Translations under genes and position numbers: made by a program | From: a virus | Length of the DNA stretch: 64,000 bases | Virus record (IMG/VR): IMGVR_UViG_3300042868_008033 | Span: 1 to 64,000 of that record | Reading direction: 5' to 3' (one strand) | Shown: positions 7,715 to 32,686 of the stretch, one piece after another | Position numbering within the stretch: the first letter of the stretch is position 1 | How the letters are laid out: each line of letters starts with the position of its first letter | Notes under the pieces: model-generated | Told to the model about the DNA's origin: nothing | Database searches by the model: none | What the model saw: the letters and a program-made list of their open reading frames with translations, nothing else

Positions 7715-7715
7715 T

Positions 7716-8117
7716 TTATCTGTTTCTCTCTAAAAAAACTGTTACAGTAGTTGGTTGTGTTGCATTTGATATATAAAAAGTTAGTGTAACATCATAAGCA
7801 TTTCTGTCAATGTATGGTGTCACTACTACATTTTTCATATTTACCCTAGGTTCATAATTTTCTATTGCAACTGAAATCTCTTTTTCTAAAGCCGCAGCTG
7901 TAACACTGGAGATATTTTCAAATAAAAGGGTGTCTATATTGGATCCAAACTCTGGATTCCATAGTTTTTCAAACTTTTTTGTTAATAATATGTTTCTCAA
8001 AGAACGGATAATGGCCTGATTGTCATAACTTAAAGCAATATCATTCAACACAGGTCTCTTGGAGAGTGTGAAGTCTATATCGGAGTAGAGTTTTTGTATA
8101 GTTTGTGAGGTTGCCAT
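7716..8117 (-). CDS. 25: Baseplate wedge protein gp25 (lysozyme-like fold, W/gpW family)
   Basis: 133 residues, the usual gp25 size (T4 132). It shows the family pattern YSDIDFTLSKRP, a VRSLRNILLT-like segment (IIRSLRNILLTKKFEKLW) and NPEFGSNIDTLLFEN, followed by the beta-rich VTLTFYI end. gp25 joins gp6 and the sheath at the top of the wedge. It stops 1 nt before gp6. A CATAAATA late-promoter-like element lies only 5 nt upstream of its ATG and no clear ribosome site is visible, which is odd. Confidence 0.9.
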   Translation of the reverse strand: MATSQTIQKLYSDIDFTLSKRPVLNDIALSYDNQAIIRSLRNILLTKKFEKLWNPEFGSNIDTLLFENISSVTAAALEKEISVAIENYEPRVNMKNVVVTPYIDRNAYDVTLTFYISNATQPTTVTVFLERNR

Positions 8118-8121
8118 CTTT

Positions 8122-8129
8122 TATTTATG
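8122..8129 (-). promoter_or_regulatory. Candidate T4-type late promoter element CATAAATA
   Basis: The minus strand reads CATAAATA here, one base from the T4 late consensus TATAAATA. It sits so close to the gp25 ATG that a transcript would be nearly leaderless, so it could be coincidental. The 8118-8214 gap otherwise contains no gene. Confidence 0.35.
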
Positions 8130-8214
8130 TCTAGGAGTAAAACGATTTTTTGGACTTTTGAAGCTGTGGGAAAAAATTCTTGAGCCGGAACGCAAAAATT
8201 CGAAATTTTGGCAA

Positions 8215-9057
8215 TTATGAAATTCTGGTCTTGGCCTTCTCTGTACCAATTAAATTCATAATCAAGTATTTCTCGGTTTCGCCCATATTATTGAGTTTTT
8301 TGGTTTTATTGTATCCTTCAATGAAATATTTTACATTATTGTAAAAATCAATATCAGCTATTCTTCTGGTTTGCATGTAGTTATTCAAATTAGTAATATG
8401 TGTGTTTATATTTGTAATTTGTTGACTTGTCAAATTTGATGATACTGTTGTCACATTTTCTTGCAAAACTATGTCAAATGTCGTTGTGGTAACAATACTA
8501 TTTGCAAATTGTTGTTTATATGTTAACAGAATATCGTTATTTGCAATTAATTGTGGTTCAATCATCAAACTAGTAAAACTACCCATAATAGGTGCATTAT
8601 TTGTAATACCATCGGTTTGTTGAGTAATATACATCGCTGTTCTACCAAAACTCATGGCCATATCAAGGTAGGGATTAATATTATCTGTTCCAACATATGG
8701 AGTTAAACCAGACAGTCTACTTGTGTGTGATAAAAACTCTTGTGCATTACTTCTTAATTGTGTTGCTGAATTGCGAACAGTTACTGAGTTTAATACTCCG
8801 TTTCCGGTATTTGCAAGTTCACTAATTGCATTGGCATTTTGATATATTAACATAATGATGCTTTGCATAGGATTTTGATAATAACCATCGAAATCTTTAT
8901 TTGCAATATCTTGTGCTTGCCAATCTGTAATAAAAGGAGGCATAGCATCCAAATGTTCTATTGTGTCTTGTGATAGTTCTTGTATGTGTCCATTTGGATC
9001 ATCAAAACTATATCCAAAAGAGTGAAAAACTCCCGCTGCATTTGCCACTGCTGTCAT
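8215..9057 (-). CDS. Conserved T4-like structural-region protein of unknown function
   Basis: 280 residues, mostly helical, with no motif I can name. Features include PPFITDWQAQDIANKDFDGYY near residue 40 and a C-terminal basic tail (TEKAKTRIS). It lies between the spike gene and gp25 inside the baseplate operon, starting 2 nt after the spike stop, so a baseplate or hub-associated role is inferred from context only. Confidence 0.55.
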   Translation of the reverse strand: MTAVANAAGVFHSFGYSFDDPNGHIQELSQDTIEHLDAMPPFITDWQAQDIANKDFDGYYQNPMQSIIMLIYQNANAISELANTGNGVLNSVTVRNSATQLRSNAQEFLSHTSRLSGLTPYVGTDNINPYLDMAMSFGRTAMYITQQTDGITNNAPIMGSFTSLMIEPQLIANNDILLTYKQQFANSIVTTTTFDIVLQENVTTVSSNLTSQQITNINTHITNLNNYMQTRRIADIDFYNNVKYFIEGYNKTKKLNNMGETEKYLIMNLIGTEKAKTRIS

Positions 9058-9059
9058 AA

Positions 9060-9923
9060 TTATACTCCTACAAAGGGCGTGAATGGGTTTGTTGTTGGAA
9101 ATCCGTTATTACCATTTCCATGAATATGTGTATCAAATATAGCTGTATTGATTTTATCTGACATTAATACTGCATCCATAACACCAATTCTAGCTAACGA
9201 GAAATTGGCCAAAGGTGCATTTACTGAAACTGCCGCATACACACTACCTAGTGCGTTAATTTGGCCAGGAACTGCAATAGGTGTCGCTGGTGTTGGAAAT
9301 CCAGCAGATACACCACCAGATGTTGTGAATCCATCAAATCCTGCAAAAACACCTGTGCCTGCGGTAACCCTAGATTCAGCATTAATCATGTCTGCATGTA
9401 TCGAACCACCAACGTTCAAATCGGATGCTATGGATATATGGTCAGCAGCACCAAGATACATTGTGCCACCAAAATTTTCATCAGCCGTAATTCTTACATC
9501 AGCATCACCTAAAATATCTACATCACCAACAGACCTAATGTTTGTCTCACCTCTGACTTGTAAGTTATAATTTCCACCTACCTGTACATTCATGTCTTTT
9601 AGAACGTTCAGGTTGCAGTTACCTTGAATCTCAATATTACAATCACCACCAATTAATATGTTTTTATTTGAAACGATGATTGTGAATCCATTGCCATAAA
9701 CTTTGTGTACTTCATCACCATTCGGATGCATTTCAATAAATGTTCCTGACCTATGCGATAAGCACACACGTTCTCTGGTTGGTGTGTCATCCATTTCAAA
9801 TTTATGTCCAGCTTCAGTTTGCTGCACATTATTATATGGATATATTGGTTGGTAATATGTGTTTGCAGCAGACTCTGGTTCTGTCCACGTATTTTCTATT
9901 GGAGGTGAATTAATTTCAGACAT
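9060..9923 (-). CDS. 5: Baseplate central spike, gp5 C-terminal-like triple-stranded beta-helix protein
   Basis: 287 residues. The centre has the short strand repeats typical of gp5/VgrG needles: IEMHPNGDEVHKVYGNG, then VSNKNILIGGDCNIEIQGN, NLNVLKDMNVQVGGNYNLQV and a run of GDVDI/GDADV turns. The last ~20 residues (DTHIHGNGNNGFPTTNPF) contain HxH, as seen at metal-bound spike tips. No lysozyme domain is visible. The OB-fold part is encoded separately at 10759-11085, so the T4 gp5 modules are split between two genes. Confidence 0.8.
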   Translation of the reverse strand: MSEINSPPIENTWTEPESAANTYYQPIYPYNNVQQTEAGHKFEMDDTPTRERVCLSHRSGTFIEMHPNGDEVHKVYGNGFTIIVSNKNILIGGDCNIEIQGNCNLNVLKDMNVQVGGNYNLQVRGETNIRSVGDVDILGDADVRITADENFGGTMYLGAADHISIASDLNVGGSIHADMINAESRVTAGTGVFAGFDGFTTSGGVSAGFPTPATPIAVPGQINALGSVYAAVSVNAPLANFSLARIGVMDAVLMSDKINTAIFDTHIHGNGNNGFPTTNPFTPFVGV

Positions 9924-16761: not shown

Positions 16762-18494
16762 AGTTATTCGGAAATAAAAAAGAAGGTACAGGCGATAAAT
16801 CGTCAAGTCCTGTTGCGTCTGAAAAAACTAAACAATCGGCTGGATTTTTAAAAAGGTCTGTCAATAAAATTGGTGATATTCTGCACAAAAAATTTGGTTC
16901 AACAGAAAAGATAACTGACACCGATTCAATGTCTAACGCCGAATATCTCGGTGAAATTTATAAATTGATGGTGCAAAACAGTGTTGATATAAAATTAGAA
17001 CGTGAACAACAGGTTAACTTTAGAGAGGAAGAAGATTCTGAGGAACAAAAAAGACACTCTGAAATAGTCAAGGCCTTGACTATACGTAGAAGACCGAAAC
17101 CTAAAGCAGTTATACGCCGTGAGAAGAAGGCAGAAGAAAAGGCCAAAGAACCGCCTAAGAAAACTGGTGAACCGCCTAAGAAAACTGGTGAAACACCTAA
17201 GAAACCAGCAGAGCCATCTAAACCAGCTGAACCTGCAAAGAAACCAGCAGAGCCAGCTAAACCAGCTGAAAAACCAGTTGAAAAAGCCAAAAGAGAAGTT
17301 GATGACGGAGTTAAAAAAGCTGCTGAAGAAAAGGCTAAAAAAGATGCTCAAGAGGCAGCCAAAAAAGCTGCTGAAACCAAAGCCAAAAAAGAAGCTGAGG
17401 AAAAGGTTAAGAAAGCTGCTGAAGAAAAGGCTAAGAAAGCTGCTGAAGAAAAGGCTAAGAAAGAAACAGCAGAAAAATTAAAGAAAGAGGAACAAGAAAA
17501 ATTAAAACGTGAGGCTGCGGAGAAAGCTAAATCTGAAAAATTAAAGAAAGATGCAGAACCGGTTAAACCTTCTACTGCAACTCAGAAACCTCCTGCAGCT
17601 GCAAAACCTTCAGCAACCGAAACTGCTGTAAAGGTTGCTACTGGTACCGCAAGTGTTGCTGGTATGTCTGCGGCCGCAGCGGCTTCTATCAAGCTTGAAA
17701 CAGGTTCTGATGCTTCACAAGCTATTAAAAAAGTAGGTCAAATAGTAGATAATGACCCTAAAGCTGGAATTAAATCTTATGGAGTTTTTGGTTTAAATTC
17801 AGGAGGAAAAAATGTTAACGAATCTTCCATAGGTAGTTTCGTTAAAGAAAATCGTCAATTCGGTTTTAAATCAACTATAGCATCTAAACAATTTGATAAT
17901 GAATGGACAAATATTGCCAACACAAGACCTAAAGAACTCTTGGATGCTCAATTGGCTTGGTATGACCGACATGTTGCTAAACCTGCTCTGAAAGACCTAT
18001 CTGGATTTCCAATAGCAATAGTTTCTGATCCTAGAGTTATACTCTATATGACAGATAGAAGAAATCAATATGGAGGCCAAGGCTTAAAATCTGCTCTTCA
18101 AAAAGTGAAATCGGTTTCAACAGCCGAAGAATTTATAGATAAGATGACAGAAATTGATTTGAATAATATAGAAAAAGATTTTAAAACTTATTTACAAACT
18201 AATCCTAAAAATAAACCAGGTTTGGTTGGTAGAATTGAAAAAAGAAAACAACTGGCATTAAGTCTTTCTAAAACTCAAGAAGTTACTAAAACTGAAGAAA
18301 AACCTAAACAGGTTAATTCAAACGCAAATTCAGGCACATATGTGGATCAGTCCTCTAGACAAAATATAGATATGAAGAAACAGGATACTCCTGCACCGAT
18401 AAACATACAACAAAATACAACTAACGTAAACAACACAACCGAATCATCAAATACACCAAAGGTTGATGATAGACCAGCACACCAAAGAAAGTAA
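16758..18494 (+). CDS. Tape-measure-position protein with Lys/Ala-rich stalk and VgrG3-like lytic domain
   Basis: 578 residues. Residues ~1-105 are a conserved head (FLKRSVNKIGDILHKKFG, ALTIRRRPKPKAVIRR). Residues ~105-290 are Pro/Lys/Glu/Ala-rich, TolA-like repeats (KKTGEPPKKTGE, EEKAKKAAEEKAKK). Residues ~330-475 resemble the C-terminal peptidoglycan-hydrolase domain of VgrG3-type proteins: SYGVFGLNSGG, FDNEWTNIA, LLDAQLAWYDRHVAKPAL, RNQYGG. It follows the tail chaperones, where the tape measure (gp29) is expected. I infer a tape-measure or hub role with cell-wall cutting at infection. Confidence 0.6.
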   Translation: MKLFGNKKEGTGDKSSSPVASEKTKQSAGFLKRSVNKIGDILHKKFGSTEKITDTDSMSNAEYLGEIYKLMVQNSVDIKLEREQQVNFREEEDSEEQKRHSEIVKALTIRRRPKPKAVIRREKKAEEKAKEPPKKTGEPPKKTGETPKKPAEPSKPAEPAKKPAEPAKPAEKPVEKAKREVDDGVKKAAEEKAKKDAQEAAKKAAETKAKKEAEEKVKKAAEEKAKKAAEEKAKKETAEKLKKEEQEKLKREAAEKAKSEKLKKDAEPVKPSTATQKPPAAAKPSATETAVKVATGTASVAGMSAAAAASIKLETGSDASQAIKKVGQIVDNDPKAGIKSYGVFGLNSGGKNVNESSIGSFVKENRQFGFKSTIASKQFDNEWTNIANTRPKELLDAQLAWYDRHVAKPALKDLSGFPIAIVSDPRVILYMTDRRNQYGGQGLKSALQKVKSVSTAEEFIDKMTEIDLNNIEKDFKTYLQTNPKNKPGLVGRIEKRKQLALSLSKTQEVTKTEEKPKQVNSNANSGTYVDQSSRQNIDMKKQDTPAPINIQQNTTNVNNTTESSNTPKVDDRPAHQRK

Positions 18495-18497
18495 AAA

Positions 18498-19937
18498 ATG
18501 GCAGATAATAAACTAAATTATCAACAGGCTAGAAGTGTCAGAAAAGCAAAATTTTCCGACATATTGCTTGACCAACTAGCACAAAGTGATAGAAGTGTAC
18601 TTGGTGCTGTTGGTAAAACCATTTCAATGAAAGCTCAGGCTAGAATTAAAGGCATCAAAGAGAAATTTGATCCTTTGAATATCGTAAGATTTATGACTAT
18701 GGGATCCAGATTTGGTCCCGCTTTGTTTGGTAAAATGACTGGTCGTAATCAAAAAGATATTGACTATTTTACTGGCCGTACTAAAAGTGTTGTTGGCACC
18801 AGAAACACCGCAGATAGATTAAAGAAAGTTGGTGGTGACGGTGATTCAGAAGGCATCAATCAACAATTAGCAAAAATATTTTCTTTCCTACAAAATAATC
18901 GTGAAGAAGATATTAAGTTAAAACAATTAGCAAAAAATTCTGAGGAAGAAATTGCCTTGGAAAAAGGTAAACGCCATAAAGAATTGATTGATACACTACA
19001 GAAGTTAATGAAACATATTAATTCTGGTGGTAAGATGACTGCTGAACCAATGGAAAAAACTTCAATGTTTGGCAACATATGGGATAATATCAAGGGTTTG
19101 GCTGAGATGATGGGTGAAATGCGAAAATTCATGTTTGATATGGCAAAAAGAATAGGCATGCCAATTTCTAAAGGCCTTTTGTCGGCTGGTAAATTTGGTT
19201 TACGTATGTTACCAATTGTTGCGGCGGCCGCCGTGGTTGGAACAGCTATTCTTGGCGCTGATTATCTTGCTCGTGAGTATCTTGGTGTTGGAAAAAATGC
19301 AGACGGAACTGATATTGTAATTGATGAGAAACAAGATGAAGAAAACTGGAATAAAATGGATGCAGCTGAAAAGTTTGAATCCAGTATTGCAAGAGCTATA
19401 GAACAAGCCGGTGATATACTTTCACCAAGTGCAGTACTTGAAGCGAGAGCTGCGAGAATAAAAAACGAAACCGAGTATCTAAAAAAGAAAGAACAAGGAA
19501 CTGCAACAAGAGTGGAACCAGAAGCACCAGAAGATATGATGTTTGATCCTGAAGGTAATTTGATACCTTTGCCACCAAATAAGTATCAATCTTCACCTGT
19601 TACAATGCCAGTAAAACCTGCTGTCGTACCACAAGCACCAGCAAATATGGAATTTGATGCTGAAGGTAGATTAATACCCTCGCCTGTACAAACTAAACCA
19701 GTACCTGTACCTGCGATACCAAAGTCTGCACCTGTTTCACCACTATCAAATACCAATTCTGATTTGAATTTACCTAAACCTGCCGCATCAAATGATATGA
19801 AACCTATCATTAACAAGACAGTAAACAATCTCTCACAGAAGCAGGAAAGAACTGGATTAAGACCTAGTCAAATATCTGTGCGTAATGATGAACCAACGTT
19901 CATGCAATTGATTATTGCTTCCACAAGGGTTGTATAA
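18498..19937 (+). CDS. Second tape-measure-position tail protein
   Basis: 479 residues. The N-terminus (FSDILLDQLAQSDRSVLGAV, KEKFDPLNIVRFMTMGSRFG, GKMTGRNQKDIDYFTGR) is conserved among long tail proteins of this phage group. A hydrophobic segment near residues 235-255 (LRMLPIVAAAAVVGTAILGA) could enter the host membrane. The C-terminal third has two copies of an MMFDPEGNLIPLP / MEFDAEGRLIPSP motif in Pro-rich sequence. Together with the upstream 578-aa protein it may replace a single gp29 tape measure. Convergent with gp32 across a terminator. Confidence 0.55.
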   Translation: MADNKLNYQQARSVRKAKFSDILLDQLAQSDRSVLGAVGKTISMKAQARIKGIKEKFDPLNIVRFMTMGSRFGPALFGKMTGRNQKDIDYFTGRTKSVVGTRNTADRLKKVGGDGDSEGINQQLAKIFSFLQNNREEDIKLKQLAKNSEEEIALEKGKRHKELIDTLQKLMKHINSGGKMTAEPMEKTSMFGNIWDNIKGLAEMMGEMRKFMFDMAKRIGMPISKGLLSAGKFGLRMLPIVAAAAVVGTAILGADYLAREYLGVGKNADGTDIVIDEKQDEENWNKMDAAEKFESSIARAIEQAGDILSPSAVLEARAARIKNETEYLKKKEQGTATRVEPEAPEDMMFDPEGNLIPLPPNKYQSSPVTMPVKPAVVPQAPANMEFDAEGRLIPSPVQTKPVPVPAIPKSAPVSPLSNTNSDLNLPKPAASNDMKPIINKTVNNLSQKQERTGLRPSQISVRNDEPTFMQLIIASTRVV

Positions 19938-19939
19938 AC

Positions 19940-19961
19940 AAAAAACCCCGCCGAAGCGGGG
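19940..19961 (-). terminator. Rho-independent terminator for the gp32 transcript
   Basis: Six-base stem CCCCGC/GCGGGG with a CGAA tetraloop at 19946-19961. On the minus strand it is followed by six T residues. No T-run follows on the plus strand, so it mainly stops leftward transcription from gp32. Confidence 0.9.
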
Positions 19962-19982
19962 TCTAAACGGTCAGAGAATCGT

Positions 19983-20864
19983 TTAATCTTCAGCCAACTT
20001 GGCAAAGTATTCCATATCGTCATCATCAGTAGCTGCGATATCAACTTCAACTGGCTTCTTTGGTGCAGCCTTAGCTTGTTCAACTGTGGTACGTGCTCGT
20101 GGAGCATCACCTTCATCATTCAAACCAAGTACTTTATCCAAACGTGTTTTCAACATATCATAAGACTTGAATTCTTTGTCAGCCGTCAACTCAGTCAATG
20201 AGAATTGTGACTTCCAAATTTTCTCCAACTTCTCATCGTCATCCAACAATGCAGATGGTGATGTGAATTCGGACTTATCATAGTTTTGATAACCCGCAAC
20301 TTTAGTGATACGTAACTTAAAGTTAGCACCCTTCCACAAATCAAACGGATTGATTGGTGTTTCATCTTCAAATGCAGGATTCATTGCACCTGTAACCTTC
20401 TCAAAAATCTTGGCACCGAACTTGAACAATTTAACTTGTCCTTCGTTCTCTGGATGCTTAGGATCAGAGATGATATAAACGTTAGCAATGTAACTTAGTT
20501 TGCGTTTTTGTTTACGAACAATGTCTTTGTTCGCTTCAATGCCTGAGTTCCACAATTTGTTGTTGTGTTCACATACAGGACATTGTTGGTTCTTGGTTGT
20601 TAAACACTTGTCGATTAACCAACCACCAGGACCTTGAAATCCATGTTCGAAAATCTTAGCCCAAGGAAGACCATCTTCACCATCAACTGCTGCTGCGGGT
20701 AGAAAACGAATCGTAGCCATGCCGTTGCCAGCTTTGTCTACTTCTGGTCGCCAAAAGTTTTCTTTATCGGATTTACCTTCAGTGGAGGCGTTGAGCTCTG
20801 CCACTTTTGCTTTCAATGTGTCCAGATTGCCTGAACTTTTTTTAAGATTTGAAAAATCTACCAT
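19983..20864 (-). CDS. 32: Single-stranded DNA-binding protein gp32
   Basis: 293 residues (T4 301). The zinc site is visible as H74, C87, C95 and C98, spaced much as in T4 (H-x12-C-x7-C-x2-C). Other marks are RFLPAAAVDGEDGLPWAKIF, WLIDKCLTT, NVYIISDPKHPENEG and an acidic C-terminal tail (DIAATDDDDMEYFAKLAED) that recruits replication partners. The protein coats ssDNA during replication, recombination and repair. The leader has three 11-bp repeats that may be a translational operator, since T4 gp32 represses its own mRNA. Confidence 0.95.
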   Translation of the reverse strand: MVDFSNLKKSSGNLDTLKAKVAELNASTEGKSDKENFWRPEVDKAGNGMATIRFLPAAAVDGEDGLPWAKIFEHGFQGPGGWLIDKCLTTKNQQCPVCEHNNKLWNSGIEANKDIVRKQKRKLSYIANVYIISDPKHPENEGQVKLFKFGAKIFEKVTGAMNPAFEDETPINPFDLWKGANFKLRITKVAGYQNYDKSEFTSPSALLDDDEKLEKIWKSQFSLTELTADKEFKSYDMLKTRLDKVLGLNDEGDAPRARTTVEQAKAAPKKPVEVDIAATDDDDMEYFAKLAED

Positions 20865-23701: not shown

Positions 23702-24283
23702 CTAGTTGTTAAACAAAATCGACTTAGATATATCTATGATATAAATTAGTCTCCTTTTATCAGTCTTATTATATGCACTATGCAATTCAGCATTATCAAA
23801 TGCAAATAAGTCGGACCAATCCTGCTTTATACCATTAACTTCCAGTGCAACATCACCTTCTGGTATGATTAATGGTATATGAATTCTTACTGTGTTGCGT
23901 GAACGATTCTCAATGTCTACATGACTTTTAATAACACCACCTGATTCTAGTACACTGTAACCACTACAACCAATGTGAGCAATATACTGTTGTGTTAGCG
24001 TTGATGCGGTTGGAAATATGTTGCGTATTCTTGGTTGTAAAAAGAAATTATGTTCAACCTTTTGTTCAGGTAATGCATAACGTAGTCCTTCAACCTTCCA
24101 ATCATTCTTTTCTTTTTCATCCAAAACAGCATGTGGGTTTGATGCAGCATATGATACACCGCCTTTAAATGTGGTGTGAAAGTCTTTATGATATTCTAAA
24201 AATTCATCACGTAATTTTGGTGCCAATTCCATCAATTCATCAGCGATTTTAATTTCATTCCTACACCAAATTGACTGCATCAT
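23702..24283 (-). CDS. Aspartyl/asparaginyl beta-hydroxylase-like Fe(II)/2OG oxygenase
   Basis: 193 residues. The double-stranded beta-helix core shows H121-x-D123 in KSHVDIENRSRNTVRIHIPL, the distal His at 168 (FAFDNAELHSAYN) and R178 for 2-oxoglutarate. This is the Asp_Arg_Hydrox pattern. It would hydroxylate Asp or Asn side chains in a protein. It follows the tmRNA and precedes the outer-membrane barrel gene by 9 nt, with a strong site (GGAGG) before the ATG. Confidence 0.8.
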   Translation of the reverse strand: MMQSIWCRNEIKIADELMELAPKLRDEFLEYHKDFHTTFKGGVSYAASNPHAVLDEKEKNDWKVEGLRYALPEQKVEHNFFLQPRIRNIFPTASTLTQQYIAHIGCSGYSVLESGGVIKSHVDIENRSRNTVRIHIPLIIPEGDVALEVNGIKQDWSDLFAFDNAELHSAYNKTDKRRLIYIIDISKSILFNN

Positions 24284-24632: not shown

Positions 24633-25288
24633 CTGTTTTTATGGTAATAATCAATTGCTTTAACCAGGCCTTCAATATGGTCTTGTGTTTTTTCTTTGAA
24701 AATCATTGGTTGTTCGTTATCCACGGCCATAATGATTATCAAATCATCAATAGGTGTACCAACTAATTCTTCATACATCAATGCATATGCAGTACATTGC
24801 CAAAAATAATCTAAAATATCTTCACGCTTTTTAATCTTCTTTGATGTTTTAAAATCAATGACTGATAACTTACCTTCATACTCACCAATGCAATCTACAC
24901 GACCTGCTAATCCTAGTTGTGCAGACCACAGTCCGACCTCTTGGTAGTGTATGTTATTGATTTTGTTTAGATGTGGTTTGATTGATATGAACATCTCTTT
25001 GGCATCAGGCATAACAGTGCCTGGTGGTTTTGTTTCATTGTTCAAATAATATTCACACATGGTATGCATATTGGTACCACGGGATGTAGCATGTTTGGAG
25101 ATTTTGTTTGCAACTTCTTCACCAACTCTACGGCGCCATGCCATGATGGCCTCTTTTTTCTGAGCACCCACCACTGTGGTCACCGATGGTAACTTTTTAC
25201 CATCAGGCGTGACATAATATCTTTTCCCGTCAGGAAAAGTTTGAGATTCAATTTTTGGAATCTCTTTTGGTGGGCAATAAATGAACAT
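24629..25288 (-). CDS. PD-(D/E)XK exonuclease (Cas4/MGME1-like)
   Basis: 219 residues. The active site is visible as LGLAGRVDCIGEY (D132), LSVIDFKTSKK (D145, K147) and the QCTAYALMY motif (Q164/Y168). Upstream E117 may complete the set. The N-terminal PSVTTVVGAQKKEAI is also typical. This family processes DNA ends in recombination and replication of T4-like marine phages. It overlaps the radical-SAM gene by one base. Confidence 0.8.
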   Translation of the reverse strand: MFIYCPPKEIPKIESQTFPDGKRYYVTPDGKKLPSVTTVVGAQKKEAIMAWRRRVGEEVANKISKHATSRGTNMHTMCEYYLNNETKPPGTVMPDAKEMFISIKPHLNKINNIHYQEVGLWSAQLGLAGRVDCIGEYEGKLSVIDFKTSKKIKKREDILDYFWQCTAYALMYEELVGTPIDDLIIIMAVDNEQPMIFKEKTQDHIEGLVKAIDYYHKNS

Positions 25289-26802
25289 TATAATCCTAAC
25301 TTTAATTTTTTGTATTCAAGGATAGTTTGATCCGCTTCTTCAATTTTTTTATTCAAAAAAGTTTTATCAAATGTTCCGTCAATAATATCTTTTATATCAA
25401 TACCCATACCAACCAATTCAAATACATCATGGTTAATACTAACACCTTTGTTGGCATTTCCATAAATGGATTTACCAGCAGCAATACGATGCTCCTCTGT
25501 TTCATTATTCAACAATGCTGTAATGATTCTTGCCGTAAAGTAATTAGAGTATTTACTTTTCCAAGCCATTATACCACTATCTCCACCATATCTCATATCA
25601 TCATCCTCTTTTGAAATTGTATATTCATCGGGTGACATTTCAGTGTAACCCCACTTTCCACATTCCTTTTCAAATTCACTTAGGCGACTTACAGAACCTT
25701 TTCTAATTAACAAAGGCCACCAATCCCAATTATCAAACACTTCAAAATTTTGTTCCAACAATATCTTTTGACTTTTGTAAACACTCGATATAGGTTCACC
25801 AGGCAAACCACATATCATACCCGTATATGTGTAGATTGGTTTATATTTTTTTAATTGTCGAATTGCTTCAAACTGTCTCTCATTATCTAGGCCTTTTCCA
25901 ATTGCTTTCTTCGCTTCTGGATGAAAAGTTTCCAAACCAAATGTTGCAGCAACCAAACCAGTATCAGCCAACATAGAAATAGTTTCAGGAAATCTCTCAA
26001 TCAAATCTGCACGTAAAAATGCTGTGTAAGTTATCTTAACACCACTCTTGGCGATTGCCTCAGCAACATAATCCAATTTGACCACGTTGTCGTTAAATGT
26101 ATCATCATTGAACCAATAGTTGTTAACACCAAACAATTCATAATTTCTACGAAATTCATCTGCCAAATTATCCACATGACGAATGTAATCATTCTTCTTT
26201 TTACCTAACAAAGGGAATGCACAGAATCTACACCTAAAAATACATCCTCTACTAATTTCAATAGGCAAAAAATTATTTTTGATTAAATCACTCTCTAACC
26301 ACTTAATAGATAAATCCGTATCATCATTCTTATATGCCATTTCTGCATTGATAGAAAGTGTATCTCTGTATGGCACCCATTTTAAATCATCTAAACGTTT
26401 CTTGGTTAAAAATTTTAGATAGTGTAATACCGCTTCTTCAGCATAACCCCAAAACACCCTATCAACTTGAGTCAAATCTACACCATCAATTGGTGTTTCA
26501 TTGCCACCAATCAGCGTTTTTACGTGTGGATATTTTTCTTTAACGTGTTTGAATATTTTATTTAATTTATCAAATGCATAGATGAATGTAATACTAATAC
26601 CAACAAACAAAGTTTTTGGTCCAATAAATCTAGCGCAGATTGTTTCAAGTTCTTCATCTGTGAAATTACCAAAATAGTCAACAACTTCAACGTTGTAACC
26701 ATGTTGGTCTAAAACTGTTCTTAATCTTGCTGCACCAGCTGGTCGACTAATTGTTCTAGTCCTCTCCATGCCGGTGAAAATAATTCCATGTGTATCTGTC
26801 AT
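25288..26802 (-). CDS. Radical SAM enzyme with B12-binding-like N-terminal domain
   Basis: 504 residues. Residues ~1-140 look like a Rossmann B12-binding domain (VEVVDYFGNFTDE, TLFVGISITFIYAF, TLIGGNETP), but I do not see the usual D-x-H-x-x-G ligand motif, so cobalamin may bind base-off or not at all. The radical SAM cluster motif is C187-IFR-C191-RF-C194, followed by GVNNYWFNDDTFNDN and AATFGLETFHPEA. Such enzymes methylate or rearrange unactivated carbons. It is in an operon with oxygenases and the other radical SAM gene; the substrate is unknown. Confidence 0.8.
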   Translation of the reverse strand: MTDTHGIIFTGMERTRTISRPAGAARLRTVLDQHGYNVEVVDYFGNFTDEELETICARFIGPKTLFVGISITFIYAFDKLNKIFKHVKEKYPHVKTLIGGNETPIDGVDLTQVDRVFWGYAEEAVLHYLKFLTKKRLDDLKWVPYRDTLSINAEMAYKNDDTDLSIKWLESDLIKNNFLPIEISRGCIFRCRFCAFPLLGKKKNDYIRHVDNLADEFRRNYELFGVNNYWFNDDTFNDNVVKLDYVAEAIAKSGVKITYTAFLRADLIERFPETISMLADTGLVAATFGLETFHPEAKKAIGKGLDNERQFEAIRQLKKYKPIYTYTGMICGLPGEPISSVYKSQKILLEQNFEVFDNWDWWPLLIRKGSVSRLSEFEKECGKWGYTEMSPDEYTISKEDDDMRYGGDSGIMAWKSKYSNYFTARIITALLNNETEEHRIAAGKSIYGNANKGVSINHDVFELVGMGIDIKDIIDGTFDKTFLNKKIEEADQTILEYKKLKLGL

Positions 26803-26805
26803 AAT

Positions 26806-27600
26806 TTAAATAAATTCATTATCTCTAACTTTTTTGGTAACATATCGTTCTCTAATTGCCTCAAAAAAATCAATATCTTCATCGGTTAATTCAACCTCAT
26901 CAATTTTTTCTCGGAATCCTCTGACGTAATCCTGTAATTGTTCAAAATCACCGGCATAATTAAAGAATTTTGTTACTTTTTTTGTATCATAAGCATCCAT
27001 GATGATATGATATCTATCCTCATCCGAATCATTTCTAATTTGGTGCCATTGATTCACCCAAAGCATCCAAACACCACCATCTGCTGGCATATGTAAGTTT
27101 TTACCTTGACAAATATGCACACACTTTTTATTCGTAAATAATGGAATATGAATACGTGCCATATATTCTGTTTCTTCAGCATCTCTATGCACCAAACTTT
27201 TTGAGTGTGCTTTTAAACAAGTAACCCTAACTCTGGTTGGATAAAAACCCATTTCACGAATGTCGTCCATTACTTTTTTAATTTCACCAACATAAGCTTC
27301 AGTTGGTTTATCATGTTCTAATCCATGAGAAATATTAAAGTATTTGTAAGCTTTTAGTACCAGTTCATTTGTTGGTAAAAAGGATTCTAGTGTTTGTCCT
27401 TTTTCCAGTTGAACAGCTTCCCAACCGCCAGTCCATGTAGCTTCTTTACACATTAAACTCCAACCACCAAAACCATTGTATTTTGGAGTTTCATATTCTT
27501 CACCTTGTATAACTTGGTCACCTAAAGTGAAAACACTTTCTCTCACTTCTTGTTTTAATTTTTCAATATCTACTGTATAGTCTAATTTTTCGAAAAACAT
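26806..27600 (-). CDS. Aspartyl/asparaginyl hydroxylase-like Fe(II)/2OG oxygenase
   Basis: 264 residues. The cupin-like core has SLVHRDAEETEYMARIHIPL (H-x-D), then WVNQWHQIRNDSDEDRYHII (distal His and Arg). The pattern is like Asp/Asn beta-hydroxylases. The N-terminus has GFGGWSLMCKEATWTGGWE and the C-terminal ~60 residues are helical and unique. It starts 10 nt downstream of the next oxygenase gene. Confidence 0.72.
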   Translation of the reverse strand: MFFEKLDYTVDIEKLKQEVRESVFTLGDQVIQGEEYETPKYNGFGGWSLMCKEATWTGGWEAVQLEKGQTLESFLPTNELVLKAYKYFNISHGLEHDKPTEAYVGEIKKVMDDIREMGFYPTRVRVTCLKAHSKSLVHRDAEETEYMARIHIPLFTNKKCVHICQGKNLHMPADGGVWMLWVNQWHQIRNDSDEDRYHIIMDAYDTKKVTKFFNYAGDFEQLQDYVRGFREKIDEVELTDEDIDFFEAIRERYVTKKVRDNEFI

Positions 27601-27610
27601 TTATTATCCT

Positions 27611-28279
27611 TTATAAGTTTCCAGTTTCTTGTAACATTTCATACACTTGGCCATAATCATACAATTTAGTTCTAAGTGCAAATGCCTTTCTAAGTTTTGC
27701 TTCGCCGCCTAATGGTTCAACATTATGTGGTATTCTCACATCTAACAAATATGCTTCACTAGGTTGAGCAATAAAAGATCCAATTTCATATACATCATCA
27801 AAAGTATATACAGCATCAACATATGTTATTTCTTCACATGTTGGCATATTTTGTTTTTCAGACACAAACTCTTTAACTCTAGTTTTTAATTCTTCAACAT
27901 TAACTTTTTCATCTTTCATATTTACAGACACATCATAGTGTCTATCTTCTTCTGTTTTCCAAGAATTTGCTCCTAGTTTTGCTCTGAAAAAGACCGTTCT
28001 ATAATTTTGTGGGTCATAATAAAAATTGATTGTTGTTATGAAGTCATTATCAACGTGTGGTAACAATAAACTATTAATTGACATTCTGGTTACTTGAAAA
28101 TCTTTCCAATATCTTTCCGGTACAACCTTATACAATACTTCTTTTTCTGGTTCTGGTGTCCAAATTGTATTATGTCTTACACCTAATCCATATTTGCCGG
28201 CAAATGAATCTGCTCGACCTTGTGGTATGATTGTGTGTGGCATATATTCATATGTGTGTTTCAATTTAACAAACGACAT
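27611..28279 (-). CDS. Fe(II)/2OG oxygenase-like protein, paralogue A
   Basis: 222 residues. The core LLLPHVDNDFITTINFYYD gives H-x-D, and YLLDVRIPHNVEPLGGEAK then KAFALRT gives the distal His and Arg. The same layout and about the same spacing occur in the next gene (28266-28805), so the two are tandem duplicates, this one with an extra ~45 residues in the middle. Substrate unknown. Confidence 0.65.
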   Translation of the reverse strand: MSFVKLKHTYEYMPHTIIPQGRADSFAGKYGLGVRHNTIWTPEPEKEVLYKVVPERYWKDFQVTRMSINSLLLPHVDNDFITTINFYYDPQNYRTVFFRAKLGANSWKTEEDRHYDVSVNMKDEKVNVEELKTRVKEFVSEKQNMPTCEEITYVDAVYTFDDVYEIGSFIAQPSEAYLLDVRIPHNVEPLGGEAKLRKAFALRTKLYDYGQVYEMLQETGNL

Positions 28280-28805
28280 TATTGGTTTCCTTTAGCATCT
28301 CTAGTACATCCTCATACTTATGAACAAAAGTTCCTAAGGTAATGGCTTTACGTAAATTGAATTCACCTTTAACGCCATGTATTTGACTTACATCAAGTAA
28401 CCAAATCTCATAATCTTTAGCAACAAAACTACCAACTTCAATCAAATCTTCTTCAAAATATATATACCCATCGGTTTGATTATCCACCTGCAATGTTCGT
28501 GGATTACCAACTTTTGGTCTATAGAATGTAGTTGTACAACTTTCTGTTTGTAGGTAAAAGTTGATTGAAGTAATAATTTCCGTATCCGTATGTGGTGGGA
28601 TTATACAGTCAATCGTCATTACTGTCAAGTGAAAATCCTGCCAGTACCTTTTTGGTATCACACCATATATTTTGTCAGCCTCAGGTGACCATATCTTTTT
28701 ATAGTCGATACCTTTACCTTCATGTTTGAAATTTTTTAGTGGGTCGGTAACTGCATATAATGGTTTTTCAAAATTTGTTTCCAGTTTTGTAAACATTATT
28801 TCCAT
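28266..28805 (-). CDS. Fe(II)/2OG oxygenase-like protein, paralogue B
   Basis: 179 residues. Shares with paralogue A the run RYWQDFHLTVMTIDCIIPPH then TDTEIITSINFYL, FYRPKVG, and WLLDVSQIHGVKGEFNLRKA. H-x-D and distal His and Arg are in place. It overlaps paralogue A by 14 nt and the next oxygenase by 10 nt. Confidence 0.65.
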   Translation of the reverse strand: MEIMFTKLETNFEKPLYAVTDPLKNFKHEGKGIDYKKIWSPEADKIYGVIPKRYWQDFHLTVMTIDCIIPPHTDTEIITSINFYLQTESCTTTFYRPKVGNPRTLQVDNQTDGYIYFEEDLIEVGSFVAKDYEIWLLDVSQIHGVKGEFNLRKAITLGTFVHKYEDVLEMLKETNNVVC

Positions 28806-29503
28806 TCTCTAATTTTTGCCATGCGGCCAGCCCACGATTTTAAAATTACCGTATTCTGTGCATTTTTGTCTACAACTTTTCTTAGGTCGGTTGACAATGA
28901 AATGCGTAAATCATCAGATTTATTTTCATCAACGCCATGCAAAACATATGATGGAAAAAATATCAATCTACCTTCAACTGGTTTAAACCTACGTTCTCGC
29001 AATTTTGGTGTGTTACTTAGAGTATTATTTAACCAATCAATTGCTTGTGCAGAATCAAACGCCACAAGGTCACCACAACCTTCTTTAGCCTTTATGTAAT
29101 ACGTTGCTGCGATAGCAGATTCGGTGTGTCCATGCACCTCTAAGCGTTCTCCTGGTTCACGCACATTGACCCAACCCATGAAGTGTTCACAACCACGAAT
29201 ATTTAACATTCTGAGTTGTGGAATATTTTGCACAATTTTCTTGGTTACAATGTCTATAATTTCTTGTTTAAGTATATCTAAGTTGGGTCTACTGTAGTCC
29301 CATATACTGTTGTTTGGGTCTTTGTCTTTACCCAATACGATATCTTTGCCGATACCATAAATTTCATCTAACAGAGTTTCATTAAATTCTTCATCAAAAC
29401 GTGTTTGTACTTCCCAAATTGGACTTTGCCAAAACATGTTCTGTGCATTTTGATACCAATGGTATTTTTCTCTGTCTTCTCTTGTCATAATATTTTGTGT
29501 CAT
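28796..29503 (-). CDS. 2OG-Fe(II) oxygenase
   Basis: 235 residues. Marks are LEVHGHTESAIAATYYIKA (H126-x-E128), GRLIFFPSYVLHGVDEN (H189) and DLRISLSTDL (R200). This is the putative 2OG-Fe(II) oxygenase family common in T4-like cyanophages and pelagiphages, related to prolyl-hydroxylase-like enzymes. It is the most upstream of the four oxygenases in this run. Confidence 0.8.
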   Translation of the reverse strand: MTQNIMTREDREKYHWYQNAQNMFWQSPIWEVQTRFDEEFNETLLDEIYGIGKDIVLGKDKDPNNSIWDYSRPNLDILKQEIIDIVTKKIVQNIPQLRMLNIRGCEHFMGWVNVREPGERLEVHGHTESAIAATYYIKAKEGCGDLVAFDSAQAIDWLNNTLSNTPKLRERRFKPVEGRLIFFPSYVLHGVDENKSDDLRISLSTDLRKVVDKNAQNTVILKSWAGRMAKIREWK

Positions 29504-29512
29504 AATAAAAAA

Positions 29513-29893
29513 TCAATAGTTTTGTTTTTCAAACCATTCTTTAAATTCTTTTAATACTTGTAATTTCAACTCATGTTCCTCATCTGTTAAATCCTCATCT
29601 TTTGGTAATGATACATAATTTTCATATTCTTCTATTGGATTTCTGTATAATGGATCCATTGTCCAATTAGCTTGTACCACTTTTTCTACTTGAGAATCAA
29701 AAAGTTCCGTCAATACATCTTCATACTCATAAGCTACAGTAAAATATTCATTTTTTTCTTCTTCAGTTAAATTTAAAATTCTTTCCATAAAAGTTTTTTT
29801 TAAAAAATCTGAAATAACTTTAGTATCCAATAATATATTATCACCTTCATAAGTTTTTATGGTCGGAAAATATGTGTAAGAATATTTTTTCAT
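29513..29893 (-). CDS. Small acidic protein, paralogue of the neighbouring 97-aa protein
   Basis: 126 residues, Glu/Asp-rich. It starts YSYTYFPTIKTYEG, then FLKKTFMERILNLTEEEK, YEYEDVLTELFDS, and ends KEFKEWFEKQNY. The 97-aa neighbour has the same order (YSIKRPVKI, FFNTFSS, YHENILIKLFGNS, HEYKEWLDKQ). No known domain. Lying between a possible substrate and four oxygenases, it could be an adaptor, a substrate or a regulator; all are guesses. Confidence 0.6.
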   Translation of the reverse strand: MKKYSYTYFPTIKTYEGDNILLDTKVISDFLKKTFMERILNLTEEEKNEYFTVAYEYEDVLTELFDSQVEKVVQANWTMDPLYRNPIEEYENYVSLPKDEDLTDEEHELKLQVLKEFKEWFEKQNY

Positions 29894-30183
29894 TGTTTAT
29901 CCAACCATTCTTTATATTCATGAACTTGTATTACATCTACTGAATTTCTTAATAATTCTGGGAGAAAAACATCACTCTTTAACAACGAATTTCCAAACAA
30001 CTTAATTAATATGTTTTCATGGTAAGTTAGTGCTTTATAAACACGTTCCTTTTTTTCTTTGTTTAAAGCATTAAACGCATTTGAACTGAATGTATTAAAG
30101 AAAAAAGTCATATGTTCATCAACATATTTTGCACTATCATCCGTTAAAATTTTAACCGGTCTTTTAATGGAATATGTTGGCAT
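29890..30183 (-). CDS. Small protein, paralogue of the 126-aa protein
   Basis: 97 residues. Same layout as the 126-aa protein but shorter in the acidic C-terminal part. It overlaps both neighbours by 1-4 nt, so it is co-translated with the Asn-Cys-repeat protein gene. Confidence 0.6.
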   Translation of the reverse strand: MPTYSIKRPVKILTDDSAKYVDEHMTFFFNTFSSNAFNALNKEKKERVYKALTYHENILIKLFGNSLLKSDVFLPELLRNSVDVIQVHEYKEWLDKQ

Positions 30184-31139
30184 TATGCAACCTTCTTCTT
30201 TGGAATAAATTTTTCAATAAAACGTCCAAGTTCAGCAACCAATTTGAACATAACAAAAATTACAACAAGGCCCGCACCTTTAATAAAACCGGGTTCTTTC
30301 TTACTTGGTCCAAACCAGCGTTGCCACACACCAATAACTTTACAGATTGGTGTACCAAATGCAAACATCATTTTACCAGTCAAACTACCAGTTTCTTTTT
30401 CACCCATCATATAGGCCATTTCTTCAGCCCAAGGTGTTGCAATATCATGTGCCCATGTGATAGACCACTTTTTTGCAGCAACACTAAAATCTTCATCGGA
30501 CATCCAAGGCATCATCTTAGGTCCTTTACCGTCCATCCAATCAACAACAATCTCAGCCCATGCACGATAACCATTGTATATATCCGGATGTGTTTTCTTT
30601 AATTGTTCACCAAATGCTTGGTCAGCCACAAAAATGTTTTTCTTCATCAATCCCAAATCAAACAACTTGGTACAAATAATTTTAGAACAATTACAATTAT
30701 AGGTGAAACAATTTTGGTTGTTCGTGCAGTTGTATACTGGTGTGGTTGCCAATTGGCAATTTCCGCTTTGTAACCATTTTTGTGTATCACAATTAGCACA
30801 GTTAATTGCAGTGCAGTTATTTGTTGCATTACATTGAATACTTGAAGAACCAGAAACACTACAATTCTGTTCTTTATTGTTTACATTATTACAATTGCCA
30901 CCATTATTTTTTTGGTAATGAGTTAAACCACCACGATATACGTTCATATTCTGTGGATTTGACTGCCTTTGTGGACTAGGTGTTGATACTGTACCACCGG
31001 GATTCAACACCAATGTGCCAGCAGGTTTCAAAAATCCATTTAAAAAGTTTAAGCTCGTACTTGCTGTGGTTGCAGCTCTACCAACCTCAGTATTAATTTG
31101 AGAAATTGCAATTGAACTGTTTATATCTGGTGTTGCCAT
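30183..31139 (-). CDS. Virion-like protein with Asn-Cys repeat domain and C-terminal membrane segment
   Basis: 318 residues. The N-terminus (INSSIAISQINTEVGRAATT) resembles the start of small virion structural proteins in T4-like phages. Residues 83-156 hold 12 cysteines (83, 93, 103, 109, 114, 117, 128, 138, 144, 149, 151, 156), ten of them directly after Asn. Residues ~160-275 are Trp-rich and helical (GYRAWAEIVVDWMDGKGPKM). A hydrophobic helix near 288-302 (GAGLVVIFVMFKLVAEL) and a basic tail end the protein. It is 34 nt downstream of a radical SAM/SPASM gene. I infer it may be a modified virion or membrane protein; alternatively the cysteines bind metal. Confidence 0.65.
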   Translation of the reverse strand: MATPDINSSIAISQINTEVGRAATTASTSLNFLNGFLKPAGTLVLNPGGTVSTPSPQRQSNPQNMNVYRGGLTHYQKNNGGNCNNVNNKEQNCSVSGSSSIQCNATNNCTAINCANCDTQKWLQSGNCQLATTPVYNCTNNQNCFTYNCNCSKIICTKLFDLGLMKKNIFVADQAFGEQLKKTHPDIYNGYRAWAEIVVDWMDGKGPKMMPWMSDEDFSVAAKKWSITWAHDIATPWAEEMAYMMGEKETGSLTGKMMFAFGTPICKVIGVWQRWFGPSKKEPGFIKGAGLVVIFVMFKLVAELGRFIEKFIPKKKVA

Positions 31140-31173
31140 TTTTTCTCTATCTTTAAAATGTTGTTATTATTAT

Positions 31174-32625
31174 TTAGGTTTCCAAACGAGATTTGCCATA
31201 TACCGCAACATCATCAACAGTTCCAATAATCTCTTTAACTACCTTGATTGGTATGATTTTTTTCTTATTTTCTTCATTATGTTCAAAAATCGTACCAAAA
31301 ATGTCTTGTCTATCTAATGGTAAAGTATCACTCTTAATCAAAGTTGGTATATAACCATTTGTCATCACAGTGAAAGCAGCTGCGAACAAGGCCACATTAT
31401 CTGAATATGCATTTGCACATGAGATATCCCAATATTTTTCATCCAAGAACATACATGCACCTTTACATATATGTAACACTGGACATTCTGGACACTCTTT
31501 ACGATTTGACCAATGTGTGACAGATTTTAATTCAACATTTGAATAATTATCCAATGTACCACCATGGTGCGATTCACCATTCTTTGAGATTTCCAAAGAA
31601 CTTACGTTCTGACAGGTCATCACATTACCACGTAGGTCAACTGAAATTGTATGTTCATCGTCCATACCACATTTTTGACCTAAATATTTAGATTCTCTAT
31701 GACTCAAAATTGAGGCCATTAAATCATCAATTTTACCCAGCTGAGGCAAGAAACCAATTTTACCATCAGAAGCATATAACTCACCAAAAGCCTTCTGTCT
31801 AAAATCAAAATGTTCTTGTTTTGTGATTAGTGAATACGAAATACCTTCTTCATCATAGGCATCAACCATTGAACCTTCACCAATAATAACATTTTCATCT
31901 CCTGTGAGATTTACAAACCAATCATAGATTTCTTTTCTACTTTGGTTCTTAGCATTCAACATTGCATTGAAACTGAAACTTTTACCTAGTTTTGTCATCA
32001 TGCGATAGAATCCAAGTATACGTTCTTTTTGTTCTGGATCATCAAAAGGATCAGGACCACGTACAAATTGACCCGGTCCATCATGTGAAATTGACACAGC
32101 AAAATCCATCATCATTAACCAATCAATAATTTCATCAGTTAAAATAGAACCATTTGTAATGATACTAAAAATAGGTTTAGTTTTCCAACTGTCAAATTTT
32201 TCTGCAATGGCCTCAGCCAATGGCTTCATTGTTTTCCAATAAACAAGTGGTTCACCACCCCAAAATTCAACTCTTAAACCAACATCTTCATCAAAATGAA
32301 GATTATCTAATTTCTCCATAAAAACATCAATATCTTTTTTAGAGGTTTCTGGTTGGCGTTCAACAAACTTCTGTGAACAATAATCACAAGAATAGTTACA
32401 ACTCAACCCCATCTGAATCTTCAAATGGCTGATTAATTTTGATTTTTTTAGTGGACGATTCTTGTCAAATGGTTTGTAAGGTTTCAAAGAATGTTGTGGC
32501 ATTTGGTCTGCCGGATATTCAAACACATTACCATCAGAATCTTTCAACACATTAGCCATATTGTCATAGTGAAAAACTCTTTTATCACCATCTTCAAATC
32601 GTGTGGCTTCAATTTCAAAAATCAT
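31174..32625 (-). CDS. Radical SAM/SPASM protein maturase-like enzyme
   Basis: 483 residues. The radical SAM motif is C76-NYS-C80-DY-C83, with GGEP in VEFWGGEPLVYWKTMKPL and IITNGSILTDEIIDW. The SPASM-type C-terminal cluster region has CGMDDEHTISVDLRGNVMTC and CPECPVLHICKGACMF then C. This layout is that of anaerobic sulfatase maturases and RiPP maturases that act on Cys, Ser, Asn or other residues of proteins. The next gene downstream encodes an Asn-Cys-repeat protein, the obvious candidate substrate. Two GATAAATA late-promoter-like elements precede it. Confidence 0.85.
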   Translation of the reverse strand: MIFEIEATRFEDGDKRVFHYDNMANVLKDSDGNVFEYPADQMPQHSLKPYKPFDKNRPLKKSKLISHLKIQMGLSCNYSCDYCSQKFVERQPETSKKDIDVFMEKLDNLHFDEDVGLRVEFWGGEPLVYWKTMKPLAEAIAEKFDSWKTKPIFSIITNGSILTDEIIDWLMMMDFAVSISHDGPGQFVRGPDPFDDPEQKERILGFYRMMTKLGKSFSFNAMLNAKNQSRKEIYDWFVNLTGDENVIIGEGSMVDAYDEEGISYSLITKQEHFDFRQKAFGELYASDGKIGFLPQLGKIDDLMASILSHRESKYLGQKCGMDDEHTISVDLRGNVMTCQNVSSLEISKNGESHHGGTLDNYSNVELKSVTHWSNRKECPECPVLHICKGACMFLDEKYWDISCANAYSDNVALFAAAFTVMTNGYIPTLIKSDTLPLDRQDIFGTIFEHNEENKKKIIPIKVVKEIIGTVDDVAVYGKSRLET

Positions 32626-32642
32626 TTTATTTCCTCTTATTA

Positions 32643-32686
32643 TTGGAATAGTATTTATCTTAGTTTGGAATAGTATTTATCTTAGT
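32643..32686 (-). repeat. 22-bp tandem direct repeat with two late-promoter-like elements
   Basis: Two identical 22-bp copies (32643-32664 and 32665-32686) each contain GATAAATA on the minus strand, at 32659-32652 and 32681-32674. They lie upstream of the radical SAM/SPASM gene; the second copy overlaps the PhoH stop codon. This may be a doubled late promoter. Confidence 0.6.

Follow-up and report, generated by a model that had tools for sequence, protein, structure and literature searches.

A phage operon pairing a SPASM radical SAM enzyme with an Asn-Cys repeat protein: a candidate RiPP-like system for tail-fibre modification

SPASM maturases, which are radical S-adenosylmethionine (SAM) enzymes, form thioether or C-C links in ribosomal peptides. 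Phage tail fibres are usually taken to mature by folding, with the help of chaperones and at times by proteolysis. Here we describe a viral operon in which a SPASM radical SAM enzyme is encoded next to a tail-fibre-like protein containing Asn-Cys repeats (the Asn-Cys protein), together with several 2-oxoglutarate (2OG)-type oxygenases. The operon lies in a 64,000-nucleotide stretch (the window; positions 1 to 64,000) of the 87-kb IMG/VR virus record IMGVR_UViG_3300042868_008033. We consider it highly probable that the operon belongs to a phage-encoded system, similar to those making ribosomally synthesized and post-translationally modified peptides (RiPPs), that post-translationally modifies an Asn/Asp/Ala-Cys tail of a tail fibre; both the chemistry and the virion location are what we infer from the comparisons below.

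PapB and the ranthipeptide maturases (NF047865) share with the window enzyme a radical SAM core and a SPASM domain, and their Cys-rich substrate is encoded beside the enzyme, but that substrate is a small precursor with CX3D motifs, whereas here it would be a phage tail fibre with Asn-Cys repeats. PapB joins Cys to the β-carbon of Asp and accepts Cys-Xn-Asp with n=0-6 (PMC9413430). Sactipeptide and other Cys-rich-peptide maturases (CteB/SCIFF, CcpM, geopeptide, Nif11) have the same SPASM architecture and Cys-rich targets, but those targets are short secreted bacterial peptides, and the window enzyme does not reach the cut-offs of these families. QhpD and the anaerobic sulfatase maturases, both of which match the window enzyme, modify or cross-link a whole protein; their targets, however, are cellular enzymes, not virion proteins, and have no Asn-Cys repeat. 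The window enzyme is a member of phrog_1802 (radical SAM domain-containing protein), which includes proteins of the Achromobacter phages JWF and 2-1, but the annotation of this family gives no function or substrate, and the link to an Asn-Cys fibre is new as far as we searched. SPASM enzymes acting on whole proteins are already known (sulfatases, QhpD); new are the substrate class, the motif and the biological setting. No earlier description of a link between phage tail fibres and a radical SAM enzyme was found in the full-text literature, a coverage that leaves out preprints and most subscription journals.

The window enzyme matches the radical SAM family PF04055 (E=8.5e-10) and phrog_1802 (E=2e-62). 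It has ten Cys in total, three in the CxxxCxxC motif (76, 80 and 83) and seven in the SPASM region (319, 338, 378, 381, 387, 391 and 403). The latter follow the seven-Cys pattern CX9-15GX4C, CX2CX5CX3C, C, as C319-X13-G-X4-C338, C378-X2-C381-X5-C387-X3-C391 and C403. The CxxxCxxC motif is kept in 121/121 homologues and all ten cluster Cys in at least 119/121. Homologues in JWF (44% identical to the window enzyme) and in roseobacters exceed the cut-off of TIGR04085 (SPASM). The top NCBIfam match of the window enzyme is PapB (NF047865; E=3e-22, 79.1 bits vs the 340-bit cut-off), and the enzyme clears the cut-off of no named NCBIfam maturase subfamily. Since no curated cut-off is reached, we rejected PapB, sactipeptide maturase and sulfatase maturase as labels for it. 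By Protein Data Bank (PDB) sequence, CteB (5wgg) and anSME are among its closest relatives, and, judged by sequence, its nearest functional relatives are peptide maturases.

The adjoining Asn-Cys protein contains 13 Cys overall. Twelve of them, ten preceded by Asn, are concentrated in residues 83-156, exactly as the initial annotation, made from the sequence without database searches, had described; the remaining one is residue 266. In the predicted model of the protein, the predicted local distance difference test score (pLDDT) is <50 across most of residues 76-152. A fold search with the whole model against the PDB returned nothing significant, partly because half of the model is of low confidence, and the C-terminal helical domain is therefore without a known fold. 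Among 110 non-redundant Asn-Cys proteins, the residue between two Cys is Asn at 330/520 positions, Ala at 95/520 and Asp at 46/520. The repeat is found at the C-terminus in 57 of these proteins, directly before the helical domain in 33, before a Hint domain in 13 and elsewhere in 7.

The initial annotation had suggested asking whether the two genes co-occur across phages, and they do. Scanning IMG/VR with the window SPASM protein identified 62 loci (the close set; 61-99% identity), and in all 62 an Asn-Cys protein is encoded on the strand of the SPASM gene: directly downstream of that gene in 59, with one extra gene between them in L030, and directly upstream in L061 and L062. For more divergent loci, a nine-sequence SPASM alignment headed by the JWF homologue was scanned against GTDB genomes and IMG/VR (31-56% identity). 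The counts cover loci in which the sequence upstream of the SPASM gene spans at least 4.5 kb, and an Asn-Cys open reading frame (ORF) was scored when it lay on the same strand within 6.5 kb. Such an ORF stands beside the SPASM gene in 59/60 viral and 46/54 genome loci, and the opposite-strand control gave 12/161. Furthermore, an enzyme-blind scan with a DNA pattern for NCNCxCNC yielded 80 analysed loci, 43 with the motif in frame within an ORF and 37 with it out of frame. A same-strand SPASM gene is nearby in 31/43 of the former vs 1/37 of the latter (Fisher p=5e-11), and the lone out-of-frame hit with a SPASM gene (L109) is a genuine tail that terminates in ...YNNCNCDCNC-stop where the contig ends. 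Most of the 12 in-frame hits lacking SPASM involve ORFs that are short or implausible, or lie in loci truncated near the gene. The association of the two genes is far above chance. The in-frame versus out-of-frame comparison and the opposite-strand control reject a chance or compositional artefact, and the alignment scans of GTDB genomes and IMG/VR reject a system confined to one T4-like phage group. As is typical of RiPP systems, a ribosomal precursor gene adjoins the modifying enzyme in the 62/62, 59/60 and 46/54 loci given above; no leader-removal protease or exporter is present among the window operon genes, and Hint follows the repeat in 13/110 proteins.

In three Variovorax loci (L271, L272 and L273) and in L261, a separate branch of the enzyme family adjoins short upstream ORFs (around 7600-9300), apparently on chromosomes. 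The short ORFs of L261 and L271 share an ...NC...SSI..L...DCGC.ISP motif, and this branch has the look of a bacterial, RiPP-like relative whose precursor is small.

The scaffolds paired with the one SPASM family include collagen-like fibres, repeat fibres, Shufflon_N plus Hint proteins and proteins with the helical domain. Because one enzyme family accompanies many unrelated fibre scaffolds, the common element is the repeat itself. The SPASM enzyme very probably modifies this Asn-Cys repeat. In the SPASM tree, the helical-domain type forms one clade (support 99), beside short tail-only types, and Hint types arise at least three times. In other phages the Asn-Cys proteins can be assigned by profile to tail-fibre families, collagen-like ones included, and in JWF and Limnohabitans the Asn-Cys fibre genes are situated between tail-tip and lysis genes. 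These family matches and this gene position support the suggestion of a virion substrate, already raised in the initial annotation, and the repeat protein is very probably a virion fibre or tip. In JWF, the run NCNCDCNCNCS is followed immediately by the Hint cysteine, and an Asn-Cys run directly precedes Hint in 12 other non-redundant proteins. If Hint cleaves itself off as predicted, the mature protein would end with the repeat, like in the phages whose gene simply stops there; unlike these Hint-domain (PF05203) tail fibres, the window protein has the helical domain at that place. We infer that the repeat functions as a C-terminal tail or shaft that is exposed and modified, with Hint, and perhaps the helical domain, as an add-on.

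The Asn-Cys protein of L061 and L062 is short (about 165 residues), contains 30-31 Cys and ends in CACDCACACDCGG. An island downstream of SPASM in these two loci (L061, 4967-7698; L062, 2760-5491) comprises two PP-loop (asparagine-synthase-like) genes and a gene for a 246-residue unknown protein. L217 (6735-7778) and L321 carry a LRLVDGGSTISFG...NCNCDCNCC-type fibre gene in which unrelated sequence replaces the end just before the repeat, with SPASM intact; a frameshift, a rearrangement or phase variation is possible. In L108 (2383-2754) and L146 (211-582), a 123-residue protein with repeated CQxCQGC motifs and the end NCNCDCNCNCSDDS lies beside a more distant radical SAM gene, L108 having two such genes nearby, and this pair is possibly an offshoot of the Asn-Cys/SPASM system.

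The helical domain offers a natural contrast, as its homologues also occur on proteins with no Asn-Cys repeat. The domain of L089 (73% identical) follows a similar N-terminal module and a Gly-rich shaft; in L090-L092 it belongs to a 1500-residue structural protein, and in SynMITS9220M01 to a Gly- and Pro-rich protein. These proteins resemble the window protein in combining a fibre-type N-terminal module, or another structural protein, with a low-complexity shaft and a homologous helical domain, but their Gly-/Pro-rich shaft replaces the Asn-Cys region and no homologous SPASM gene accompanies them. Indeed, neither the L089 record (156 kb) nor the complete SynMITS9220M01 genome has a SPASM match or a homologue of OxyA, one of the operon's oxygenases. 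The L089 record has one distant Asp hydroxylase, and those of L091 and L092 give only weak matches to other radical SAM enzymes, with no homologous SPASM gene. Within the same enzyme clade, the systems whose Asn-Cys protein is without the helical domain (L061, L062, L150, L163, L170, L232 and L234) have neither OxyA nor the Asp hydroxylase. Together, these observations indicate that SPASM tracks the repeat, and that OxyA and the Asp hydroxylase track the combination of repeat and helical domain. We rejected the idea that SPASM tracks the helical domain instead, since many SPASM-linked repeat proteins lack this domain; it is also contradicted by the absence of SPASM where a Gly-rich shaft carries the domain.

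Downstream of the helical-domain structural protein with a Gly-rich linker in L091, three radical SAM-like genes, weakly related to the SPASM enzyme, lie in a row (17267-20354). The tail-type protein of SynMITS9220M01 (L002, 6627-8519) has about 46 Pro and then 8 Arg consecutively before the helical domain, a stretch that could be a genuine low-complexity linker or an error of sequencing or assembly.

The four Fe(II)/2OG-type enzymes of the initial annotation are borne out by family match, motif or fold, although two of them, OxyA and its paralogue OxyB, have no convincing family match in Pfam or PHROG. In an alignment of OxyA and OxyB, H72, D74, H143 and R152 (HxD...H...R) are invariant in 28 sequences, and the OxyA model is a double-stranded β-helix (pLDDT 92) with Foldseek matches to the 2OG oxygenases YcfD, MINA53 and NO66. 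In the 49 close loci for which 5.5 kb or more of downstream sequence is available, OxyA and the Asp hydroxylase each occur in 48, the PF13759 oxygenase in 41, and OxyB and the B12-binding radical SAM enzyme each in 21; the last two are accessory. The genes for SPASM, the Asn-Cys protein, OxyA and the Asp hydroxylase stay together in genome backgrounds lacking other T4-like neighbours. The best NCBIfam match of the B12 enzyme is a PhpK-type P-methyltransferase, at 100.9 bits, below the 600-bit cut-off. In the divergent loci, a 2OG-Fe(II) oxygenase is the commonest gene between the Asn-Cys gene and SPASM (67 of about 105 loci), sometimes as two or three in tandem in unrelated phages, which supports the earlier view of oxygenases as partners. 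A profile of these intervening oxygenases matches the window PF13759 protein at E=1.2e-12, placing them in the same broad family. A second common intervening family (about 280 residues, 61 loci) has no known relatives that we found. The JWF type has neither family and only a 240-residue unknown protein between fibre and SPASM; as this type does without an intervening oxygenase, SPASM is the constant partner and the oxygenases, very often one to four alongside it, are frequent but dispensable.

From these comparisons we propose the following maturation pathway. In the infected cell, the SPASM enzyme would abstract hydrogens within the Asn-Cys repeat and make several intra-fibre links, most likely from Cys sulfur to a carbon of a neighbouring Asn, Asp or Ala, much as PapB or sactipeptide maturases do. 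The tolerance of PapB for spacings of n=0-6 makes a short-spacing Cys-Asn, Cys-Asp or Cys-Ala link plausible. The PF13759-type oxygenase may hydroxylate Asn/Asp or the helical domain; in the T4-like branch OxyA and the Asp/Asn hydroxylase may do likewise, and in one clade a methyl group would be added by the B12 enzyme. The outcome would be a stiff, protease-resistant and possibly receptor-binding fibre tip on the virion. That the oxygenases act on the same protein as SPASM seems reasonably likely to us. For thioether chemistry, argued by analogy, we regard the case as evenly balanced. We lean slightly towards the full picture, in which phages of many morphologies would make a poly-thioether, hydroxylated Asn-Cys fibre tip with their own SPASM enzymes and oxygenases, Hint exposing the C-terminus in some lineages.

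The SPASM enzyme might instead modify the repeat by epimerisation to D-residues or by C-C cross-links, with the oxygenases and the B12 enzyme as further tailoring enzymes in a somewhat proteusin-like system. The strict two-residue alternation in long runs would fit this, an N-C-N-C sequence suiting an alternating D/L helix, as would the presence of a B12 radical SAM enzyme and several oxygenases in the window clade and of cyclophane-forming maturases among the better NCBIfam matches. However, Cys is the constant residue of the repeat, which points to sulfur chemistry, the top NCBIfam matches are the thioether-forming PapB and Cys-rich-peptide maturases, and a complete SPASM domain with seven Cys typifies cross-linking maturases and would be unexpected in PoyD-type epimerases, so that we judge this chemistry rather unlikely. 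The involvement of the oxygenases can also be doubted: they and the B12 enzyme could be ordinary auxiliary genes of 2-oxoglutarate or host metabolism that are here by chance, leaving SPASM and the Asn-Cys protein as the system. T4-like cyanophages do commonly encode 2OG oxygenases, for which a part in 2-oxoglutarate and nitrogen signalling has been proposed (PMC3037559), and the low counts of OxyB and the B12 enzyme would agree with such a role. Against it stand the near-constant presence of OxyA and the Asp hydroxylase, other genome backgrounds included, and the 2OG oxygenases, at times in tandem, between fibre and SPASM in the 67 loci of unrelated phages, and we find this explanation doubtful although not far-fetched.

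It is very unlikely that the repeat forms a fibre tip that binds metal or is rich in disulfides, with SPASM acting elsewhere and linked to it through a host-range cassette. Cys-rich repeats can bind metals and tail-fibre loci are recombination hot spots, but the same enzyme clade pairs with unrelated scaffolds that have just the repeat in common, and the records of Gly-rich fibres that share the helical domain show no enzyme of this kind. A secreted RiPP or bacteriocin, rather than a virion part, would be in line with the classic RiPP layout of SPASM plus a Cys-rich peptide and with the short, Cys-rich protein of L061 and L062; in most phages, however, the repeat ends a recognisable tail fibre encoded between tail and lysis genes, which makes a secreted product most improbable.

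Several observations weigh against the proposal that SPASM and the oxygenases modify the repeat of a virion fibre. The 62 close loci are mutually related and not independent. Eight genome loci have no repeat protein; six of them (Variovorax, a gammaproteobacterium and Bacteriovorax) are on separate branches and probably represent another system. The window Asn-Cys protein has no significant tail match in PHROG or Pfam, and the virion role suggested for it is drawn from its relatives and from shared N- and C-terminal modules. The operon lies next to phoH-type and replication genes, not in a structural module. Systems without the helical domain also lack OxyA and the Asp hydroxylase, whose target may therefore be that domain and not the repeat. 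The thioether assignment is an analogy for an enzyme below every NCBIfam subfamily cut-off, with epimerisation and C-C cross-linking as alternatives. Finally, SPASM enzymes are usually oxygen-sensitive and 2OG oxygenases require oxygen.

If correct, modification of the fibre by the SPASM system would give the first phage structural protein with cross-links made by a radical SAM enzyme, and would bring covalent chemistry into host recognition or the stability of fibres. Orphan radical SAM and 2OG-oxygenase genes, as a rule classed with phage auxiliary metabolism, would gain a function, and peptide engineering would gain many genetically encoded Asn-Cys scaffolds. The proposal is readily testable, since the isolated Achromobacter phages JWF and 2-1 carry the cassette; cultured bacteria with similar loci are Limnohabitans, Burkholderia paludis and Thalassobacter.

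The operon extends over 25288-32625 on the minus strand, with no gap or overlap longer than 34 bp between its nine head-to-tail genes, and all nine ORFs were recovered in the order initially described (Table 1). The two small proteins had been called paralogues; both genes are present, but their paralogy is marginal (23% identity, E=0.001 in one comparison). The 97-residue protein has no family match in Pfam, PHROG or NCBIfam searches.

Table 1. Genes and protein regions of the operon, and one nearby hydroxylase gene, in window coordinates
Feature	Coordinates	Strand	Evidence or predicted role
SPASM radical SAM enzyme, 483 residues, phrog_1802	31174..32625	-	PF04055, phrog_1802; predicted modifier of Asn-Cys repeat
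Asn-Cys tail-fibre-like protein, 318 residues	30183..31139	-	N-terminal fibre-type module, Asn-Cys region, C-terminal helical domain
Asn-Cys region, residues 83-156	30672..30893	-	12 Cys, ten after Asn; predicted modification site
All-helical C-terminal domain, residues 153-318	30186..30683	-	Homologues on repeat-free phage tail proteins
Small protein, 97 residues	29890..30183	-	In 25/49 close loci
Small protein, 126 residues	29513..29893	-	Distant possible paralogue of 97-residue protein
2OG-Fe(II) oxygenase (PF13759; 2OG_5), 235 residues	28796..29503	-	Pfam E=2e-17; 41/49 close loci
OxyA, 2OG-type oxygenase, 179 residues	28266..28805	-	HxD...H...R, modelled fold; 48/49 close loci
OxyB, OxyA paralogue (41% identity), 222 residues, accessory	27611..28279	-	21/49 close loci
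Aspartyl/asparaginyl β-hydroxylase-like oxygenase (PF05118), 264 residues	26806..27600	-	E=6e-9; 48/49 close loci
B12-binding radical SAM enzyme, 504 residues, accessory	25288..26802	-	PF02310 and PF04055; 21/49 close loci
Further PF05118 hydroxylase, just outside operon, membership uncertain	23702..24283	-	E=2e-14; homologue in 17/49 close loci

By PHROG, the T4-like genes of the window are rIIA and those for a baseplate tail-tube cap, a baseplate wedge and a nucleotide-sugar epimerase. At 59239-60450 (minus strand), the window has a third radical SAM gene (403 residues) with weak similarity to the tetraether lipid synthase Tes and to TrsS, scoring far under the cut-offs of both.

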